64,000 nucleotides of DNA from assembly GCA_022571845.1 (NCBI GenBank), contig JACZXB010000003.1, positions 62,001-126,000 of the forward strand, written 5' to 3'. Position 1 is the first letter of the stretch; each line of letters opens with the position of its first letter. Shown here in pieces: positions 29,345 through 60,674 of the stretch. The position numbers and the translations under genes are program-made. The DNA is from Candidatus Zixiibacteriota bacterium (GTDB taxonomy: Bacteria; Zixibacteria; MSB-5A5; GN15; FEB-12). The notes under the pieces are model-generated. The model did no database searches. It was not told where the DNA came from and worked only from the letters and a program-made list of their open reading frames with translations.

Positions 29345-30538
29345 CTAATGAAAATCAGTAGTTAGACCGTCGTCATTGTCGTTGTTGATGTCGCTCCAAC
29401 TTTTATCCGAACAGCTAATCTTCCAGCGTCCCTGGAAGAATCCGCTTAGCGCATCACTTTCAGACTCCCTGGTGATGAAATGACCGGCCAGGTATCCTAT
29501 TTGAAGGCGGTCTTCGTTGAAAATCTGTCCTCTGAAAAAACCGCCGGTCGGGGTTGAACTGGCGACTATTAGGCTAGTGTCACTAAAATCCCAATGGCCT
29601 CTGATAAACCCCTGGAAGCGACCTTCACGGGAAACCCATTTGCCGAAAAAGACTTTCTCGCCGTATTCTCTTTGACCAAAATGACCCTTGATATATCCGA
29701 CAACCAGTCCGGCTCTATTTAGCCAGACTCCTCTAAACCGGCCGTTGCCGCTGTCATCAAATCCCCAGCGTCCGGCTAAGAATCCGTGCGGGCAGGGAAA
29801 GTGATCAAGTTTTAAGGCATGAAATGCGACTGCGTTGGAATCTTCAAGAAATACAATTGTATCCAGTGATACCAGCTCATCAAGGTCAAAGGTCGTGCTG
29901 TATGGCCCGGTATTAAAAGATACGGTCACTGGCTCTGCTTCCGGCCAGGTAGTATCTACCTCAATTATGATAACGGTATTACCGGCAGAATCGATAAATT
30001 CGACTTTAGTAGTGTCCAGAACAGGTTTTACAGGCGGTACCAAGAGGTCAACCGCTATGCCGTCGTTATGAACCGTAGTTTGTGAAACCCACTCTATCAG
30101 TTTACGATCGGTGCGTGGTGCTATATAATCCTGCCCCAACTCAAAGTTAATAACCCGGCGGATAATCTCGGCCCCGCGGGTTATGCTTAAGGAGCCGCTC
30201 CAATCGGTAGGATTGGTCATGGTTGAGTCAAAACGAAGCTGACCCCAGACAATTCGCAGGTGATAAAATCCGGCCTCTGGGTCGCCGGTAAATACTGTTA
30301 CCGCCGAGTCCGACAACATCGGGTCATCATATTCGTCGTCGCTGGCATAAGCTTCATCAAGCAGCTCATCATCGCCAAAACCGGGAGATTCGCTGGCGGT
30401 CGAATAGCCGCCGAACTCATCGGTCAGATTCGGCTCATCAATCAATAATTCCGGTTCGACATTCTTGTTTGAACAGCCGATTGCCAAAAGCAGCAATATG
30501 GCCGGCATAAAAGCGAGCAAGAGTTCTTTGATTTTCAT
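29345..30538 (-). CDS. Repeat-containing acidic lipoprotein, probably sigma-54 regulated
   Basis: 397 residues. Signal peptide II with lipobox LLAIGC (Cys ~22). An acidic low-complexity linker (DDELLDEAYASDDEYDD) follows, then a beta-rich domain. In the C-terminal third there are short aromatic/glycine repeats of the form GxFxGxW...GYxxGHF (GFLAGRWG, GRFRGVW, VGYIKGHFG, RFQGFIRGHW, FFRGQIFN, IGYLAGHF, FFQGRW), perhaps a solenoid or MORN-like sheet. No known family is recognised. The upstream gap holds the palindrome GTACC-N4-GGTAC and a near-consensus sigma-54 promoter with the same geometry as at 50310-50416. Confidence 0.75.
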   Translation of the reverse strand: MKIKELLLAFMPAILLLLAIGCSNKNVEPELLIDEPNLTDEFGGYSTASESPGFGDDELLDEAYASDDEYDDPMLSDSAVTVFTGDPEAGFYHLRIVWGQLRFDSTMTNPTDWSGSLSITRGAEIIRRVINFELGQDYIAPRTDRKLIEWVSQTTVHNDGIAVDLLVPPVKPVLDTTKVEFIDSAGNTVIIIEVDTTWPEAEPVTVSFNTGPYSTTFDLDELVSLDTIVFLEDSNAVAFHALKLDHFPCPHGFLAGRWGFDDSGNGRFRGVWLNRAGLVVGYIKGHFGQREYGEKVFFGKWVSREGRFQGFIRGHWDFSDTSLIVASSTPTGGFFRGQIFNEDRLQIGYLAGHFITRESESDALSGFFQGRWKISCSDKSWSDINNDNDDGLTTDFH

Positions 30539-30599: not shown

Positions 30600-30614
30600 T
30601 CAATCCTTATGCCA
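30600..30614 (-). promoter_or_regulatory. Near-consensus sigma-54 (-24/-12) promoter
   Basis: On the reverse strand reads TGGCAT-AAGGA-TTGA. The -24 GG and TTG are in place, but the -12 GC is GA. It lies 62 nt before the lipoprotein start. Support comes from the upstream palindrome whose centre is 99 bp from the -12 position, as at the consensus site at 50402-50416. Confidence 0.45.
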
Positions 30615-30692
30615 AAAACCTTGCATGGCTATAAGCAACTGAATAGTAACAGCTTATACCTCTAAGCAGCATTTCACATATTTGGTAATTCT

Positions 30693-30706
30693 GTACCTCC
30701 AGGTAC
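30693..30706. promoter_or_regulatory. Palindrome GTACC-TCCA-GGTAC (candidate activator site)
   Basis: 5-bp arms identical to the palindrome at 50310-50323 and the same 4-nt spacer length. The only other arrangement seen in the window with both arms this close is a zero-spacer copy inside a coding region. A second inverted repeat GTGAAC-N6-GTTCAC follows at 30720-30737. Confidence 0.5.
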
Positions 30707-30781
30707 ATGCTCAGCCAAAGTGAACCCAGACGTTCACCTGATATCATCTATTGAATTAAAAGAAGACGCTCATTCAACTCG

Positions 30782-31330
30782 TTATTCAAGCTGCTTGAGC
30801 AATTTAATACTCTCGTCAATCCAAAGAAACAGTGAATCCTGCCTTTCGCCCTCAATCAAGAGCCCCCAGTGCGTTAAGCGGTAACTCCATAACGGCATTT
30901 CTCCGTCTTCAATTTCTTCTCTTATTTCTCTTAGTCGCTCAATTTGAGTAGCGTGTCCGCTGAAAGGAAAATCGTCGGACATATTAAGATGCTCTTTGGC
31001 CTCTTTGATATCATCATCGATCAGCCCGCCGATAAACGGCAGGACATGATACCAGGGATATTTAGTGGAATCAGTATGGCAGTCAAAACAGCTTTTCCTG
31101 AAAATATGACGAACAGTCTGGTAATTAATGTTAATTACAGCGTAAACAGAATCCTGGATTATTTGGACGCTGTCGGAGAGGATCGTATCGACTGTCTCTT
31201 TTTTATCGTCTTTATCATCGTCATCATGCTTCTTTTTCCCGTGGCTGAGAGTCGAGACCACCGGAATCAAAAGCAGCAGACCGAGAACAAGAAAACCATT
31301 AAGCAATCTTTGGTTCGATTCTGACAGCAT
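30782..31330 (-). CDS. Membrane-anchored haem-binding (CxxCH) domain protein
   Basis: 182 residues. One N-terminal transmembrane helix (LLNGFLVLGLLLLIPVVSTL). A metal-binding-looking tract HGKKKHDDDDKDDKK comes next, then a Haem_bd-type domain with CFDCH (CxxCH c-type haem attachment), STKYPWYHVLPFIG and ISDDFPF-like elements (MSDDFPFSGHATQ). Probably a periplasmic c-type cytochrome-like electron carrier or sensor. Cytochrome maturation genes are not in the window. 27 nt upstream of it, on the same strand, murQ ends in tandem order (murQ comes after). Confidence 0.8.
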   Translation of the reverse strand: MLSESNQRLLNGFLVLGLLLLIPVVSTLSHGKKKHDDDDKDDKKETVDTILSDSVQIIQDSVYAVININYQTVRHIFRKSCFDCHTDSTKYPWYHVLPFIGGLIDDDIKEAKEHLNMSDDFPFSGHATQIERLREIREEIEDGEMPLWSYRLTHWGLLIEGERQDSLFLWIDESIKLLKQLE

Positions 31331-47425: not shown

Positions 47426-47601
47426 AATTCTCAATTTTTAAGAAGCCTATTATACCGATTTTCTTGGCGCAAAGTCAAGAAAGTTGAATCGATATCCGCT
47501 ACCTCTGGGAAGTTTGATAATACTGCCAGCTCAGGTAAGTTCCTGCTGATACAATTCCTGTTAAAGTTGACTGTCTGTCTTTCTTGGAGTTGCTTTGTGC
47601 G

Positions 47602-48948
47602 ATGTTTGGCGGCACTAAAAAACTCTGGCTGGTGGCCTTATTTTCTATCGTACTTATCGTACTGGTAAATCTGGCCTGGTGGATTTTCTACGATAAAACA
47701 GAGGCTATCCTTGATGGCCAACTGGGACGGCGACTGGCGCTGGTGGCCAATACCGGCGCCATGAGAATTACGGCCGCGGACATTGAAGCTCTGATGTCGG
47801 CTGATTTTGAAGCATTTGTAAAAATCTCAGACATCTTAGAAGATATCCGGCTGCTTGATTCTCTCTCGGAAGTCTTTCTTCTTGATGAAAACTATCAGTA
47901 TCTGGCGACTACTTCCTATGAAACCGACAGTACATATTTGCTGGCTCCGCTAAATGGCCGCTTCATAGATTCGTTTTTTTACAGTTTGGAAGAGAATGCT
48001 CTGGTAACAGAATCTTACCAAACCGGTTCAATTTATCTCAAATCTGCTTTTGTGCCGCTGCCTGATTCGCTCGGGCTGGTGGTGGCAGTACTGGGTGTTG
48101 AAGCGCCCGTAGATTTTTTTGAATCACTAATCGAACTAAAAAACAATTTGTATTTTTCGAGTCTGCTGTCGGTACTGGCAGGTATTGTTTTCGGTATAAT
48201 CTTTCTGCTGGTCCAGCGCTCTCTTAACCAGGCCGAAGCCCGCCTGGTACTCAGCGAAACGCACTCCCATTTAGGCCGGATGGTAGCAGTCATATCCCAC
48301 GAAATAAAAAACCCGCTTATGATAATTCGCGGTGCGGCGGAGCGTCTCAAGAAATTTCTGGCCAAAGAAAATGAGCATCCGGAAGAATCAGATTTTATAA
48401 TCGAAGAAGTTGACCGCTTAAATCAAATTGTCACCGGTTATCTGAGTTTTGCCCGCGGGACTACCGGCGGAATTTTGGCGGCCAGTCAGAGTGAGCCGGT
48501 TAAAGTGGCTGAATTTATTGCCAAAATGAAAGCTGACCTGGGGCAAAAATATGCTGACCAAAAAATCGAATGGATTAGTGATAATTCTCCCCCCGGTCTG
48601 GTTATCGATAGCTATCCTCGAGTCTTGCGTCAGATTCTATTGAACTTGCTGATAAACGGAGCCGAAGCCTGCCTGTCTGCCGAGAAGCCGCTGAAATTGG
48701 GAATCTCGATATTAGAGCAGGCTGAGTTTATTGAGATAAGAGTTCTGGATTTTGGTGCGGGCATTCCCAAGAGAGAGATAAAAAAGCTGTTCGAGCCATT
48801 TTATACTACCCGGCAGCAAGGCTCCGGTCTGGGTTTATACCTGACCCTAAAAATAGTTGAAGAATTGAAAGGCCGTATAGATATTCAGAGCGAGCCCGGT
48901 GAAAAAACAGAATTTATAATTTATCTGCCTAAAGAACCGAACCAGTAA
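47602..48948 (+). CDS. Membrane sensor histidine kinase of an NtrC-type pair
   Basis: About 448 residues. TM1 at ~6-28 (LWLVALFSIVLIVLVNLAWW), a ~150-residue periplasmic sensor (Cache/PAS-like, with DENYQYLATTSYETDS), and TM2 (LLSVLAGIVFGIIFLLV). HisKA with phospho-acceptor His in VAVISHEIKNPLM. HATPase with N-box NLLINGAEA, DFGAGIPK and GSGLGLYLTLKIVEEL. Start: ATG 47602; a TTG at 47584 is possible. Only 3 nt separate it from the regulator gene, so they form a two-component system. Confidence 0.93.
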   Translation: MFGGTKKLWLVALFSIVLIVLVNLAWWIFYDKTEAILDGQLGRRLALVANTGAMRITAADIEALMSADFEAFVKISDILEDIRLLDSLSEVFLLDENYQYLATTSYETDSTYLLAPLNGRFIDSFFYSLEENALVTESYQTGSIYLKSAFVPLPDSLGLVVAVLGVEAPVDFFESLIELKNNLYFSSLLSVLAGIVFGIIFLLVQRSLNQAEARLVLSETHSHLGRMVAVISHEIKNPLMIIRGAAERLKKFLAKENEHPEESDFIIEEVDRLNQIVTGYLSFARGTTGGILAASQSEPVKVAEFIAKMKADLGQKYADQKIEWISDNSPPGLVIDSYPRVLRQILLNLLINGAEACLSAEKPLKLGISILEQAEFIEIRVLDFGAGIPKREIKKLFEPFYTTRQQGSGLGLYLTLKIVEELKGRIDIQSEPGEKTEFIIYLPKEPNQ

Positions 48949-48951
48949 AAT

Positions 48952-50286
48952 ATGGCACACATACTTGTTGTAGATGACGAACCGAAAATTTCTTCGATGG
49001 TCTGCGGAGTCATGGAAGACCTGGGGCACGATGTGCAGACTACGGTAGACCCCGCCGAAGCAATTAAGCTGCTTGAGCTGCATTCTTTTGATCTGGTTGT
49101 AACCGACATTTCGATGCCAGAAATCTCAGGCATGGAGATTCTCAAAAAAGCGCTGGAAAAAGAAGGTACTCAGGTAATAATGATGACCGCCTACGGCTCT
49201 GTTGAAAATGCTGTTGAAGCCATGAAAATTGGCGCTGTAGATTACATCGAAAAGCCGTTTAGTTTTGAGGTTCTGGAAGTCAGAATTCAGAAAGTTCTCC
49301 AGCAGCAAAAGCAAAAGTCGCTGGCAGATCACTATAAGAAAGTCGCCGCAGCTCAGTCGGAAAGTGATTTTGTAGGAAATTCTCAGGCGGCGGAAAAGGT
49401 TAAAGAACTTATCAGAAAAGTAGCTGTCACTAATGCTACTGTTTTGCTTACCGGCCGCTCCGGAACCGGTAAGGAAGTGGCGGCGCAGATGATTCACCAA
49501 ATATCATCCCGTAAAGCCAATCCGTTTATAGCTGTCAATTGTGCGGCCCTGCCTGACAATTTACTGGAGTCTGAATTATTCGGACATGAAAAAGGCGCTT
49601 TTACCGGCGCCGACGCCCGTAAACGAGGCCGCTTTGAACTGGCCGACAGCGGTACTTTGTTTTTAGATGAAATAGGTGATATGACTACGGCCTTACAATC
49701 TAAACTTCTGCGAGTATTAGAAGAAAGAAAACTGGTCAGAGTCGGCGGCGTTGACCAGGTCGAGATTGATGTCAGAGTGGTGGCGGCCACTAACCGGGAT
49801 TTGAAGGAAGAAATTGAAAATGGAAAGTTCCGGGAAGATTTGTTTTTCAGGCTCAATGTTTTCCCAATAAATATGCCCAATCTTTCCGAGCGAACCGAGG
49901 ACGTTATTCCTCTGGCACAACACTTCTTAAAGAGGCAAAATTATCCCCACCTGGACCTGGATGTCAAAGTAAGCGAATTGCTCGAAATGTACGACTGGCC
50001 GGGTAATATCAGAGAGCTGCGAAATGTGCTTGAAAGAGCGGTAATTCTCTCGGGCGGCGAGCCTCTAAGTACGGCTGACTTTTCTCTGGAAATAGACAAC
50101 GAGCCGATTATAGAAACCGGCAGCGCCAGTCCCGCCGCCAAAGAGGGACTTGAGATGGCCGAAAAACAGATGATTCTTGAGGCCCTAGAGCGCACTAACG
50201 GCAACAAAACCGAGGCTGCCAAGATGCTAAAGATTACCAGACGGCGTCTTTACAGCCGTATGAAAGTTCACGGAATTAGTCCCTGA
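48952..50286 (+). CDS. Sigma-54-dependent NtrC-family response regulator
   Basis: 444 residues. Receiver domain 1-120 (VVDDEPKI, phospho-Asp in VVTDISMPE, MMTAYG, EKPF). AAA+ domain with Walker A GRSGTGKE, the sigma-54 contact loop GAFTGA intact (GHEKGAFTGADARKRG), Walker B LFLDEIGD and arginine-rich R-finger region FREDLFFRLNVFP. Fis-type helix-turn-helix at the C-terminus (NGNKTEAAKMLKITRRRLYSRM). Directly downstream is a consensus sigma-54 promoter and a perfect palindrome, the natural local target. Confidence 0.96.
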   Translation: MAHILVVDDEPKISSMVCGVMEDLGHDVQTTVDPAEAIKLLELHSFDLVVTDISMPEISGMEILKKALEKEGTQVIMMTAYGSVENAVEAMKIGAVDYIEKPFSFEVLEVRIQKVLQQQKQKSLADHYKKVAAAQSESDFVGNSQAAEKVKELIRKVAVTNATVLLTGRSGTGKEVAAQMIHQISSRKANPFIAVNCAALPDNLLESELFGHEKGAFTGADARKRGRFELADSGTLFLDEIGDMTTALQSKLLRVLEERKLVRVGGVDQVEIDVRVVAATNRDLKEEIENGKFREDLFFRLNVFPINMPNLSERTEDVIPLAQHFLKRQNYPHLDLDVKVSELLEMYDWPGNIRELRNVLERAVILSGGEPLSTADFSLEIDNEPIIETGSASPAAKEGLEMAEKQMILEALERTNGNKTEAAKMLKITRRRLYSRMKVHGISP

Positions 50287-50309
50287 TGGTTCGTCGAAAT
50301 TGTAGAACC

Positions 50310-50323
50310 GTACCTTAAGGTAC
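50310..50323. promoter_or_regulatory. Perfect palindrome GTACCTTAAGGTAC (candidate regulator site)
   Basis: 14-bp perfect palindrome whose centre is 99 bp upstream of the -12 GC of the sigma-54 promoter, a typical enhancer distance. Same arms and spacer length as 30693-30706. Likely bound by the NtrC-type regulator encoded just upstream. Confidence 0.6.
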
Positions 50324-50401
50324 AATCCGAATAGGCCGCAGAATTTGAGCGAATAGCGTAATCTCTTGTGTCCTATTTGGTTAAAAGAAGATAGGCAGCA
50401 A

Positions 50402-50416
50402 TGGCACCTCCTTTGC
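50402..50416 (+). promoter_or_regulatory. Consensus sigma-54 promoter
   Basis: TGGCAC-CTCCT-TTGC, an exact match to the -24/-12 consensus with GG-N10-GC spacing, 35 nt before the start of the helical secreted protein. Confidence 0.9.
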
Positions 50417-50450: not shown

Positions 50451-51497
50451 ATGATGAAAAAGAAAATGCTCAAAAGCCTCATAATTGTAATAGCGGCGGC
50501 GATGCTGGCTCCGATATCAGCGGCCCAAATAACCGGTGATTTCATTGAATTCGTTAGAACCGAACTGGAAAGAACAAACCATATTCTTGAGAGGGTCAGA
50601 GAAGTCGTCAGAACTTCCAGCTCCCCCTCGGCTGCTTTAGTGCTGGAACAGGCTGTTCGTCTGCAAAGGCAGGCTTGGGAAAATTTTGGAATGGGGACTT
50701 CGGAAGGCTATAAGTTTGCCTCTAAGCTTACCCAGGCAGCCCGCGAGCAAGCCCATAAGGCCCTGAGCATTGCTCGTCTTTCCGAGCAAGGGGAAGAAAC
50801 GGTCCTTCGCAAATTAGAACGGACCAAAGAACTTTTGACCCGGGTTCATGAGTCCCTGAGAGGTTCAGCAGATGAATCACTAAAAACACTATTTGAATCT
50901 GCCAGAAGACAGCTCAGGCAGGCCTGGGAGTTCTACCGCGCCAGGGAATATCGACCAGCTTTAAAACTGGTAAACCAAGTCGAAAAGACGGTGAGACGAT
51001 TGCTGAAGAATGCAAACCGCCATCAAAACCGCCAGGCCAATTTTGAGCGCCGGGTCGAAACAGTCAGGGAACTGTTAAGCCGAGTCAGGGAGAGAATTGG
51101 CGACTGTAAATCAGAAGCGGCCGAGAGAGTCTTTAAGCAAGCCGAAGAAAGCTTTCATAAGGCGCTTGAACTGGCCGAAAATGGAAGACTCGAACAGGCT
51201 GTTAATCAGCTGCAGAGAGCTCGTAGAATTGCCCGGAAAGCTGCCGAGATGTGCGGCCAGGCTGATAATATCTCCGGCAGGTTGGAAAGCCTGAGAGCTG
51301 AGGCCGACCGCATAAAGGAAGATTTGCCTGCCAATGATGAGAGCGCTGCCCGCTTGATTGGTCAGGTTTACGGCCAGCTTGAAAATGCCAGAGAATTTAT
51401 ATCAAGACAGGACAATGAGGCTGCAGCGGCAGCTCTGAAGGCGGCTCAATTAACGCTCAGACAACTCAAAAGGCATCTGGACCGCAGCGAGTTTTAA
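50451..51497 (+). CDS. Secreted all-helical repeat protein under sigma-54 control
   Basis: 348 residues (or 347 from the second ATG at 50454, better spaced from GGAG). Signal peptide (LIIVIAAAMLAPISAAQ). The rest is Glu/Arg/Leu-rich coiled-coil built of ~75-residue repeats, each with an LERT(K/N)-(E/H)LL-RV(R/H)E start and an RQAWE or HKALELAE end (TNHILERVREVV, TKELLTRVHESL, VRELLSRVRERI). No family recognised; probable periplasmic adaptor or scaffold. Shares the promoter with the following barrel gene (23 nt gap), so the pair may form an envelope complex. Confidence 0.8.
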   Translation: MMKKKMLKSLIIVIAAAMLAPISAAQITGDFIEFVRTELERTNHILERVREVVRTSSSPSAALVLEQAVRLQRQAWENFGMGTSEGYKFASKLTQAAREQAHKALSIARLSEQGEETVLRKLERTKELLTRVHESLRGSADESLKTLFESARRQLRQAWEFYRAREYRPALKLVNQVEKTVRRLLKNANRHQNRQANFERRVETVRELLSRVRERIGDCKSEAAERVFKQAEESFHKALELAENGRLEQAVNQLQRARRIARKAAEMCGQADNISGRLESLRAEADRIKEDLPANDESAARLIGQVYGQLENAREFISRQDNEAAAAALKAAQLTLRQLKRHLDRSEF

Positions 51498-51520: not shown

Positions 51521-52783
51521 GTGAAATTGGGGAGAATTTATGGAGCAGCTGTTTGTCTGGTAGTAGCAGCGATTTGTCAAAACCCGCAAGCCTCAAACTT
51601 TGAAATAAAAACGTCCTTAGGCTACGATTTCATTTCACAAGAGTATTTCCTGGATTCGGTTACTACTGACAGCACACTTTCTCTGTGGCAGCTCAAAACT
51701 GATTATCTTGATGAACTAAGAGGCAGGATTTCTTTTCGTTACTGGTCAGGAGAACAAAGGGAGCTGGAACTTCAGTCAAGTTTTGAACAGTCCAATGAGC
51801 TGTTTAGAATAAGACTTTTTGCTGACTGGAGACCAAAGCTCGGTAACAGCAAATTGGGCATAAGCACTGAGCTGGAACGGCGAGACCGCTATAAAGGAGT
51901 TTCTCAGTTTGGTGATTCCTATCTTTTTGGCTACACCAAGGCCTTCATAAAAATTCCGGTTTCAGCTAAGCTGACTTCAAAGATTCAGTTTATGAGCGAG
52001 TTTGTTTGTTTTGACAGCACCTCAGAATTCAGTTTTGACTACTATCGATTTGGCCCCAAAATCGGCCTGACTAAATCTTTCGAGAGCTTTTCGTTTTTGA
52101 ACGTCAATCTGTTTCTGGTGACCCGACAGGTGCCAGATTCGGCTGAGCTTGATTATCTGAATTTTGGGCTGGATGGCTCTTTTTTCGGATTAATGGATGG
52201 CGGCGATTTTGATTTTTATGCCAGATTTGAGCGCAAGGACTACAGCCGGGCTGACAGGCAAGACGACCATTTTAGATTCGATTTTGACGGCAGAGGGGAA
52301 ATCAATATTAGGGGCAATTCAATTATGAGAATTGAGCTGCGCTCAGATTTCGTTTTCTATAGCCCTGAAGACCAAGTCAATTTTGACTACGGCCGGCATC
52401 TTCTGACCCTACTGGCAGGCTACGAAAAAGATGGCTGGGGGGTTGCCATTGGACCGGAATTTGGGCTTCTGCTGGAACAGGAAAGAAGCTTAAATACAGT
52501 TGAAAATTACTTTGAAATTGGCGGCAGAATAGACCTGGAGCTGCTTAAGGCCGGTCGATTTTTCGGAAGTCTGGAGTCTACCCTGGGCTACCGAAATCTT
52601 AAAATTGAGGATCAATTACAGACCAATTTCGTTTACGAGAGAATCAATACGATAGGAAATTTTCAGCTGGGAAACGGGCTGAATCTGAACTGGCTCTTTT
52701 CAGCTGAATGGGAATGGCATGATTTGAGGCAGGAAAACTCTCAAATTTTCCTTTTGTCCTCAAGCTTCAGCTACTCTCTTTGA
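51521..52783 (+). CDS. Predicted outer-membrane beta-barrel protein
   Basis: 420 residues. GTG start, with a short signal peptide (IYGAAVCLVVAAICQNPQA). The mature protein is a long series of alternating amphipathic strands rich in aromatic residues (FRFDFDGRGEIN, LRSDFVFYSP, WGVAIGPEFGLLL) and ends in SFSYSL. This resembles uncharacterised outer-membrane barrels of FCB bacteria; transport or anchoring function unknown. Second gene of the sigma-54 operon. Confidence 0.75.
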   Translation: MKLGRIYGAAVCLVVAAICQNPQASNFEIKTSLGYDFISQEYFLDSVTTDSTLSLWQLKTDYLDELRGRISFRYWSGEQRELELQSSFEQSNELFRIRLFADWRPKLGNSKLGISTELERRDRYKGVSQFGDSYLFGYTKAFIKIPVSAKLTSKIQFMSEFVCFDSTSEFSFDYYRFGPKIGLTKSFESFSFLNVNLFLVTRQVPDSAELDYLNFGLDGSFFGLMDGGDFDFYARFERKDYSRADRQDDHFRFDFDGRGEINIRGNSIMRIELRSDFVFYSPEDQVNFDYGRHLLTLLAGYEKDGWGVAIGPEFGLLLEQERSLNTVENYFEIGGRIDLELLKAGRFFGSLESTLGYRNLKIEDQLQTNFVYERINTIGNFQLGNGLNLNWLFSAEWEWHDLRQENSQIFLLSSSFSYSL

Positions 52784-59309: not shown

Positions 59310-60674
59310 ATGCCAAAACAGTCAGTTATTTACGGGAATATAGTCTCCGACGAAGATCGCCGGAAAATCAGCAGTAAGCACCCGGGTAAAATGGATAAAA
59401 TTCTCTGGCTGGATAAACCGGAGATGTTCCAGAAACAGACCGGCGGTGCCATCGTAATAGTTGATCTTGATGACCCCAAATTTGCTTCACCAGATTTTCT
59501 TGTCTCAATCGCAACAGCTGGAGAGAATGTAAAGATAATCGGAAAGTCGAACGAACTTAATCTCGACGATTCGCTGAGAGTAGCCAAGATGGGCGTTTCT
59601 GAGATTCTTTCGTCCAATGAATGCCTTGAAAGACTGCAACAATTCTTAACGGAACTAGAAGAAGATAAAATTTCTACCGTCCCTAAAGAATCAAAGTATA
59701 GCGCCTCGGCATTGATAGGTGTGTCGCCTGCCATGAAAGAGATTCGCAAAACTCTGGAGCTGCTTGCTGAAGTGGATTATCCCAGTGTCTTGATTCTTGG
59801 AAGCACCGGGACCGGCAAGGGTCTCATTGCAAAAATTCTGCATAATACCGGCTGCAGAAGTAGTGAGAATATGGTAGAGGTCAACTGTTCGGCCATTCCT
59901 GATAATCTTTTTGAGTCAGAGCTTTTCGGCTATGTAAAAGGAGCCTTTACAGACGCAAAGCATGACAAAATAGGACTATTCGAATACGCTGAGAATGGAA
60001 CTCTGTTTCTTGACGAAATAGGCAACCTCTCACCATCTGCACAGGCCAAACTCTTAAAAATAGTTGAAGAGAAAAAGCTCAGGCGGGTTGGCGATGTTAG
60101 CGAAACAGACATAAATGTCCGGATTGTAGTAGCCACCAACTCTAACCTTCAACAGGCAATCAAAGACGGCCGGTTTCGGGAAGACCTGTTTTACCGGTTG
60201 AATCTGCTAACCATAGAACTTCCCCCCTTAAAGGACCGTCCCGAAGATATACCGGTAGTTGCAGAGCACTACGTTCAGTTCTATTCTTCATTATATGGCA
60301 AAGAGAATTTGTCTGTTTCGGATTCAGCTCTTTCAGCAATGAAGGAATACTACTGGCCCGGTAACGTACGGGAGCTCTGCAATGTAATAGAAAGAACCGT
60401 CTTGCTCAGCAAAGCCGGCCCCATAACCGCTGATACAATTAATAGCGCCCTTGCTAACAAGAGAGTAACTCTTGCTGATCGCGAACAGTTGATTATTGAC
60501 CTGCCGGGACATGGCAAACCTCTTAAGGATATCGTAAAACAGGTTGTTATCGAAATTTTGAATACGTTCAACTGGAATAAGTCAGAAACAGCCAGGTATT
60601 TGGGCATTTCTCGACCCAGACTCAGAAGAATCATGAGCGACTCCAATATCAAGGCAGACAGGCGCGAAATGTAA
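59310..60674 (+). CDS. Sigma-54-dependent regulator with degenerate receiver
   Basis: 454 residues. The N-terminal ~115 residues have a receiver-like pattern (AIVIVDLDDPKFASP, KMGVSEIL) but lack clear phospho-site surroundings and the C-terminal K-P, so phosphorylation is doubtful. AAA+ domain: Walker A GSTGTGKG, sigma-54 loop reads GAFTDA instead of GAFTGA, Walker B LFLDEIGN, FREDLFYRLNLL. A Fis-type helix-turn-helix ends the protein (NWNKSETARYLGISRPRLRRIM). GAFTDA is a known variant and should still engage sigma-54. A consensus sigma-54 promoter lies 179 nt past its stop. Confidence 0.93.
   Translation: MPKQSVIYGNIVSDEDRRKISSKHPGKMDKILWLDKPEMFQKQTGGAIVIVDLDDPKFASPDFLVSIATAGENVKIIGKSNELNLDDSLRVAKMGVSEILSSNECLERLQQFLTELEEDKISTVPKESKYSASALIGVSPAMKEIRKTLELLAEVDYPSVLILGSTGTGKGLIAKILHNTGCRSSENMVEVNCSAIPDNLFESELFGYVKGAFTDAKHDKIGLFEYAENGTLFLDEIGNLSPSAQAKLLKIVEEKKLRRVGDVSETDINVRIVVATNSNLQQAIKDGRFREDLFYRLNLLTIELPPLKDRPEDIPVVAEHYVQFYSSLYGKENLSVSDSALSAMKEYYWPGNVRELCNVIERTVLLSKAGPITADTINSALANKRVTLADREQLIIDLPGHGKPLKDIVKQVVIEILNTFNWNKSETARYLGISRPRLRRIMSDSNIKADRREM

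Follow-up and report, generated by a model that had tools for sequence, protein, structure and literature searches.

The enhancers to which NtrC-family activators bind lie some 80-150 bp upstream of -24/-12 promoters. Two arrangements of this kind, with matching palindromes at 30.6 and 50.3 kb of a 64-kb window (the whole stretch of DNA analysed) from Candidatus Zixiibacteriota, raise the question of whether one regulator governs both of the genes that follow them. Here, we describe the two sites, the genes that they precede and their conservation across the order. If one regulator serves both, the locus would offer a testable circuit, complete with regulator, operator, bending site, promoter and two targets, in a phylum for which metagenome assemblies are almost the only source of knowledge, and would assign two conserved envelope protein families without a known domain to one response.

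Two palindromes, two sigma-54 promoters and their genes

The palindrome at the lipoprotein site, a candidate upstream activating site, occupies 30693-30706 (GTACCTCCAGGTAC on the plus strand, GTACCTGGAGGTAC on the minus strand), and the palindrome at the secreted-protein site occupies 50310-50323 (GTACCTTAAGGTAC). The former is followed by a conserved sigma-54 -24/-12 promoter, TGGCATAAGGATTGA (30614..30600, minus strand), in a genome that carries rpoN, and the latter by TGGCACCTCCTTTGC (50402-50416, plus strand); the sigma-54 signature was found, with GG at -24, G at -12 and 10-bp spacing (TGGCAC-N5-TTGC-like). At both sites the distance from the palindrome centre is 87 bp to the -24 GG and 99 bp to the -12 dinucleotide. 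The initial annotation had placed the first palindrome at these distances from a sigma-54 promoter, and had held its arms, spacer length and both distances to equal those of the 50.3 kb site; its coordinates and distances proved exact, and the agreement between the sites holds base for base. The refined element is wider than GTACC-N4-GGTAC, namely the 16-bp TGTACC-N4-GGTACA (30692-30707). On the minus strand it reads TGTACC-TGGA-GGTACA (30692..30707), is kept in orthologous promoters and is proposed as the enhancer for an NtrC-type regulator; its counterpart, the second proposed upstream activating site, reads (C)GTACC-TTAA-GGTAC(A) on the plus strand (50309..50324).

Only two copies of GTACC-N4-GGTAC occur in the window, and 0.44 palindromes are expected in a shuffled window with one mismatch allowed. 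Exact TGGCAYNNNNNTTGM is found three times in the window, twice at palindrome-spaced promoters; with three sigma-54 boxes over 128,000 strand positions, the chance of one at a given offset from a given palindrome is estimated at about 5e-5. A recent duplication of the promoter region was ruled out, because the remaining sequence of the two regions is unrelated. The 21 contigs of the genome (2.75 Mb) contain three copies of the palindrome and none of a reversed control pattern; a sigma-54 box lies 75-105 bp downstream of two of the three genomic copies, both of them in the window. The third copy (C19:22690-22703, equal to L001:9690-9703) precedes a lipoprotein-like gene by about 50 bp and secA by about 250 bp, and a search for a sigma-54 box at the usual spacing from it found none. 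Ten specified bases are estimated to give about 2-3 chance occurrences per 2.75 Mb, so chance explains this copy sufficiently, and it was rejected as a third site of the regulon.

The first target (29345..30538, minus strand), downstream of the 30.6 kb site, encodes a 397-aa lipoprotein with the lipobox LLLLAIGCS and beta-rich repeats, those at the C-terminus being of G-x-W type. Its predicted structure is beta-rich (pLDDT 81); Pfam and NCBIfam searches gave no family, and no solved relatives were found by fold or sequence. A diverged paralogue, about 30% identical, is present at G000:C2:34450-35346, so the lipoprotein is part of a wider unnamed family in these bacteria. Immediately upstream of the lipoprotein gene is a gene (30782-31330, minus strand) whose product carries a haem-binding domain (PF14376).

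A kinase/regulator pair and the gene for the secreted protein flank the 50.3 kb site. The kinase (47584..48948, plus strand) is a membrane sensor histidine kinase with HisKA and HATPase_c domains. The 444-aa response regulator that follows it (48952..50286, plus strand) has the domains of the NtrC family: a receiver (Response_reg, 1.4e-26), a sigma-54 AAA+ domain (Sigma54_activat, 2.1e-72) in whose sequence the GAFTGA motif can be read, and a C-terminal Fis-type HTH (HTH_8, 1.9e-13). The second target (50451..51497, plus strand) is a 348-aa secreted protein with a signal peptide and a predicted all-helical structure (pLDDT 92), for which Pfam and NCBIfam searches gave no family and comparison by fold and by sequence gave no solved relatives, the model having no PDB match at E <= 0.001. 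Next to it, and conserved beside it, is the gene for a 420-aa exported protein (51521..52783, plus strand) that is probably an outer-membrane barrel. Syntenic orthologues keep one arrangement, with the kinase first, then the regulator, the control region, the secreted protein and the barrel-like protein. The genome has one rpoN (PF04552 at C17:50152-50628, E 3.1e-59), two HU/IHF-family genes (PF00216) and about 12 other strong sigma-54 activator domains. A second sigma-54 activator of 454 aa (59310-60674, plus strand) is encoded 9 kb downstream of the system, with no GTACC-N4-GGTAC palindrome near it.

Conservation across the order and the regulator gene

The comparison covered 80 genomes of the order (Candidatus Zixiibacteriota). 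Relatives were searched for GTAC-N6-GTAC followed at 70-100 bp by TGGC-N-Y-N5-TTG. The pattern was found in 54 of 98 relatives, with 77 matches against 8 for a reversed control. Among 60 genomes searched for both targets (same-strand genes within 400 bp), 48 of 60 matches lay directly upstream of target orthologues (lipoprotein, 31; secreted protein, 17), and the palindrome with its spaced promoter is confined to the orthologues of exactly two genes, those for the lipoprotein and the secreted helical protein. When promoters were picked without motif selection, the palindrome was present in 26/29 and 16/19 lipoprotein promoters (two sets) and in 27/29 secreted-protein promoters; named loci taken in the same way, some of them from the same species, gave 35/40. 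A few sites are reduced to the GTAC-N6-GTAC core. The promoter consensus over 78 sites is TGGCAC..TTG(A/T), in which the core bases were imposed by the search pattern and the A and C after TGGC were not. The sequence between the elements is essentially random across promoters, and the elements are therefore under selection.

Measured from the palindrome centre to the T of TGGC, the spacing is 85 bp at both promoters of the source genus, and in other genera it is 85-86 bp at lipoprotein promoters versus 81-84 bp at secreted-protein promoters. The base-exact equality first described thus stands in the source genus and fails in the others, and the spacing rule is agreement within about 3 bp rather than identity. 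Loss of the palindrome or of its spacing, which was looked for in close relatives, was not seen there, the geometry being kept. In genus g30 (L089, L015, L183 and L184), additional GTAC half-sites recur in 10-bp steps in the promoter that follows the regulator, an example being the overlapping palindromes GTACCTTAAAGTACGGCAAGGTAC of L089; these possibly hold several regulator dimers on one DNA face.

Orthologues of the regulator are cleanly separated from paralogues (E below 1e-125 versus above 1e-119). A lipoprotein promoter could be read in 48 genomes, 35 with the regulator and 13 without a detected regulator. The promoter has the palindrome in all 35 of the former and in seven of the latter, the other six lacking it (Fisher p about 1.4e-4, kinship between species being ignored), and palindrome loss was seen only where the regulator gene was not found. 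The seven assemblies that have the palindrome but no detected regulator are all 66-86% complete, for which reason a missing contig is the likely explanation of the absent gene. The six palindrome-free genomes represent two or three separate lineages; on the lipoprotein tree this state requires three changes, of which at least two are imposed by branches with good support. The secreted target was sought in three of the six and is absent from all three. All orthologues seen share the HTH recognition helix I[TS]RRRLYSRMK, and paralogues have a different one. In two distant species (L179 and L180) the kinase gene divergently adjoins the lipoprotein gene, in L179 together with the start of the regulator gene; both species have the palindrome and the second inverted repeat described below, with the promoter at 119 bp.

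These observations bear on two other accounts of the paired sites. That they are a coincidence, two chance palindromes beside two chance sigma-54 look-alikes, could be argued from the one in 12 window shuffles that yields at least two palindromes with one mismatch allowed, and from the third genomic palindrome, which has no promoter at the usual spacing; the recurrence of one geometry before the same two genes across the order, with unrelated sequence between, refutes this account and makes it vanishingly improbable. The low offset estimate and the order-wide conservation likewise uphold the original judgement that a chance origin is unlikely. We also consider it very unlikely that the palindrome is bound by a different regulator, either another NtrC-type activator or a repressor, with the kinase/regulator pair a mere neighbour of one target: about 12 other sigma-54 activators are available in the genome and seven incomplete genomes have the palindrome and no detected regulator, but every regulator-bearing genome has the palindrome, palindrome-free promoters all belong to genomes without the regulator, the recognition helix does not vary among orthologues, and in a distant species the kinase and regulator start adjoin the lipoprotein gene. 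Order-wide conservation, restriction to two genes, co-loss with the regulator and the kinase adjacency of L179 and L180 together give strong support to a single regulon for the lipoprotein and 50.3 kb promoters, which is the link that the initial annotation had drawn. From synteny and co-loss, we infer that the regulator of the palindrome is the one encoded at 48952-50286.

A second inverted repeat and the proposed mechanism

Both promoter families have a further element, new here and absent from the initial annotation, in the form of a 25-bp inverted repeat (TAA-N4-TTG-N5-CAA-N4-TTA). At the lipoprotein promoter it reads TAA-N4-TTA-N5-CAG-N4-TTA (30632..30656, minus strand), 17 bp upstream of the T of TGGC, and at the secreted-protein promoter TAA-N4-TTG-N5-TAT-N4-TTA (50359..50383, plus strand), 18 bp upstream. 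The repeat begins 42-43 bp upstream of this T, so that 17-18 bp remain between, and it keeps a rigid distance to the promoter and a more variable distance to the palindrome. In a hold-out test, a matrix built from lipoprotein promoters scored 11.1 bits on secreted-protein promoters versus -8.6 (sd 1.0) on shuffled spacers (hold-out z = 19). In some promoters the eye picks out a TTCAC block at 15-20 bp upstream of the palindrome, but this failed in a frequency table and was discarded.

Known IHF-assisted sigma-54 promoters include those of pspA, glnH and nifH, and the order of their parts (enhancer, bending site, -24/-12) is the same here. Each half of the second repeat is an IHF-like core, CAANNNNTTR; compared with the IHF site WATCAANNNNTTR (complement YAANNNNTTGATW), both halves have the CAANNNNTTA-type core and the W-A-T flank is weak. 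In Vibrio fluvialis T6SS promoters, to which IHF binding has been shown, a gap of 16 bp separates the IHF site from the sigma-54 motif (PMC5963220), compared with 17-18 bp here. Because of the IHF-like cores and this precedent, we read the second repeat as a putative HU/IHF-type bending site. It differs from the element of IHF-assisted promoters in being symmetric (two inverted cores) and degenerate; its symmetry would suit a homodimeric HU/IHF-type protein.

An alternative that concerns this step only, and that we think unlikely without dismissing it, is that the second repeat is bound not by HU/IHF but by the regulator, as a second site, or by some other dimeric protein. NtrC-type activators often require two sites, a habit that would fit the second repeat as a site of the regulator. 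The symmetry of the repeat, as against the asymmetric E. coli IHF consensus (PMC5963220), points the same way, but three things count against this alternative: the repeat has no sequence relation to GTACC, CAANNNNTTR is matched by both of its halves, and its distance from the -24 box, 17-18 bp, approximates that in Vibrio fluvialis (PMC5963220).

With the second repeat read as a bending site, it is highly likely that the palindromes are enhancer sites of one NtrC-type regulator (48952-50286) that, assisted by HU/IHF, switches on both targets, and the control region very probably serves a single circuit, dedicated to stress or sensing and made up of two operons. In this circuit, a stimulus would act through the membrane histidine kinase to give phosphorylated regulator, which would bind TGTACC-N4-GGTACA about 87 bp upstream of -24; an HU/IHF-family protein would aid the loop by bending the DNA where the second repeat lies, some 30 bp upstream of -24; and the ATPase of the regulator would open the waiting sigma-54 polymerase at both promoters, inducing the two operons together. 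The output would be the lipoprotein and the secreted helical protein, and probably also the barrel-like protein encoded after the second target. Judging by where in the cell all the products are located, we guess that the stimulus is an envelope or surface condition.

Known systems and apparent promoter replacement

A sigma-54 enhancer regulon is a known kind of mechanism. NtrC has the enhancer site TGCACC-N5-GGTGCA, and GTACC-N4-GGTAC resembles it as a palindrome with ACC/GGT inner arms and in its proposed recognition by a Fis-type HTH, but differs in another arm base and in a spacer one shorter; on the NtrC model the regulator (P0003) scores 392.8 bits, below the cut-off of 558.6. The locus is also like ZraPSR of Escherichia coli (kinase ZraS, NtrC-type ZraR and periplasmic helical chaperone ZraP) in its membrane kinase and NtrC-family regulator, very few target genes, sigma-54 promoters and adjacent exported helical protein; the ZraPSR regulon is very small, consisting of zraP, zraSR and mgtA (PMC7657598). 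However, the regulator (P0003) reaches 396.9 bits on the ZraR model (cut-off 760) and the kinase 119 bits on the ZraS model (cut-off 479), the 348-aa second target has no ZraP/CpxP/Spy-family Pfam match, and the other target here is a lipoprotein. Membership of ZraPSR was rejected, since both proteins fall far short of the curated ZraR and ZraS cut-offs and the targets bear no relation to those of ZraPSR. In Desulfovibrio vulgaris, small sigma-54 two-component regulons were reconstructed with the same kind of comparative reasoning, and most of their sites are 4-6 bp inverted repeats 3-8 bp apart (PMC3333781, PMC4641369); the target genes here differ in having no known family, and the main text of PMC4641369 makes no mention of GTACC/GGTAC. 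Literature searches for the regulon or motif found nothing, nor did they find a paper on sigma-54 control in Zixibacteria, and the regulon, operator and targets appear to be undescribed in the literature searched. Less usual are the symmetry of the second element and the apparent replacement of the promoter on more than one occasion.

TTAATCTT is present in each of the six palindrome-free lipoprotein promoters. In five, namely G015 and four from a single genus, it forms part of TTAATC-N16/17-T(G/A)TCTTA, located at -120 to -134 relative to the matched gene start; the palindrome-bearing promoters that were tested all lack this element. It looks as if the sigma-54 promoter has been replaced by another promoter class in separate lineages. 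We suggest tentatively, and with more doubt than confidence, that a dedicated envelope circuit of two operons, present across the order and having an enhancer code of its own and a symmetric bending site of the homodimer type, lost its enhancer, bending site, sigma-54 promoter and regulator gene together in at least two, probably three, lineages, and that the lipoprotein gene gained a related new promoter (TTAATCTTTTT...TGTCTTA), which would amount to repeated convergent rewiring of a single gene between sigma factors. The joint disappearance of regulator and site, with another promoter in place of the old one, would be a natural experiment in bacterial promoter rewiring. The TTAATCTTTTT...T(G/A)TCTTA element lies about 120-135 bp upstream of the lipoprotein orthologues of L043, L045, L063, L170, L208 and L215, and a partial form of it is present in L158 and L209.
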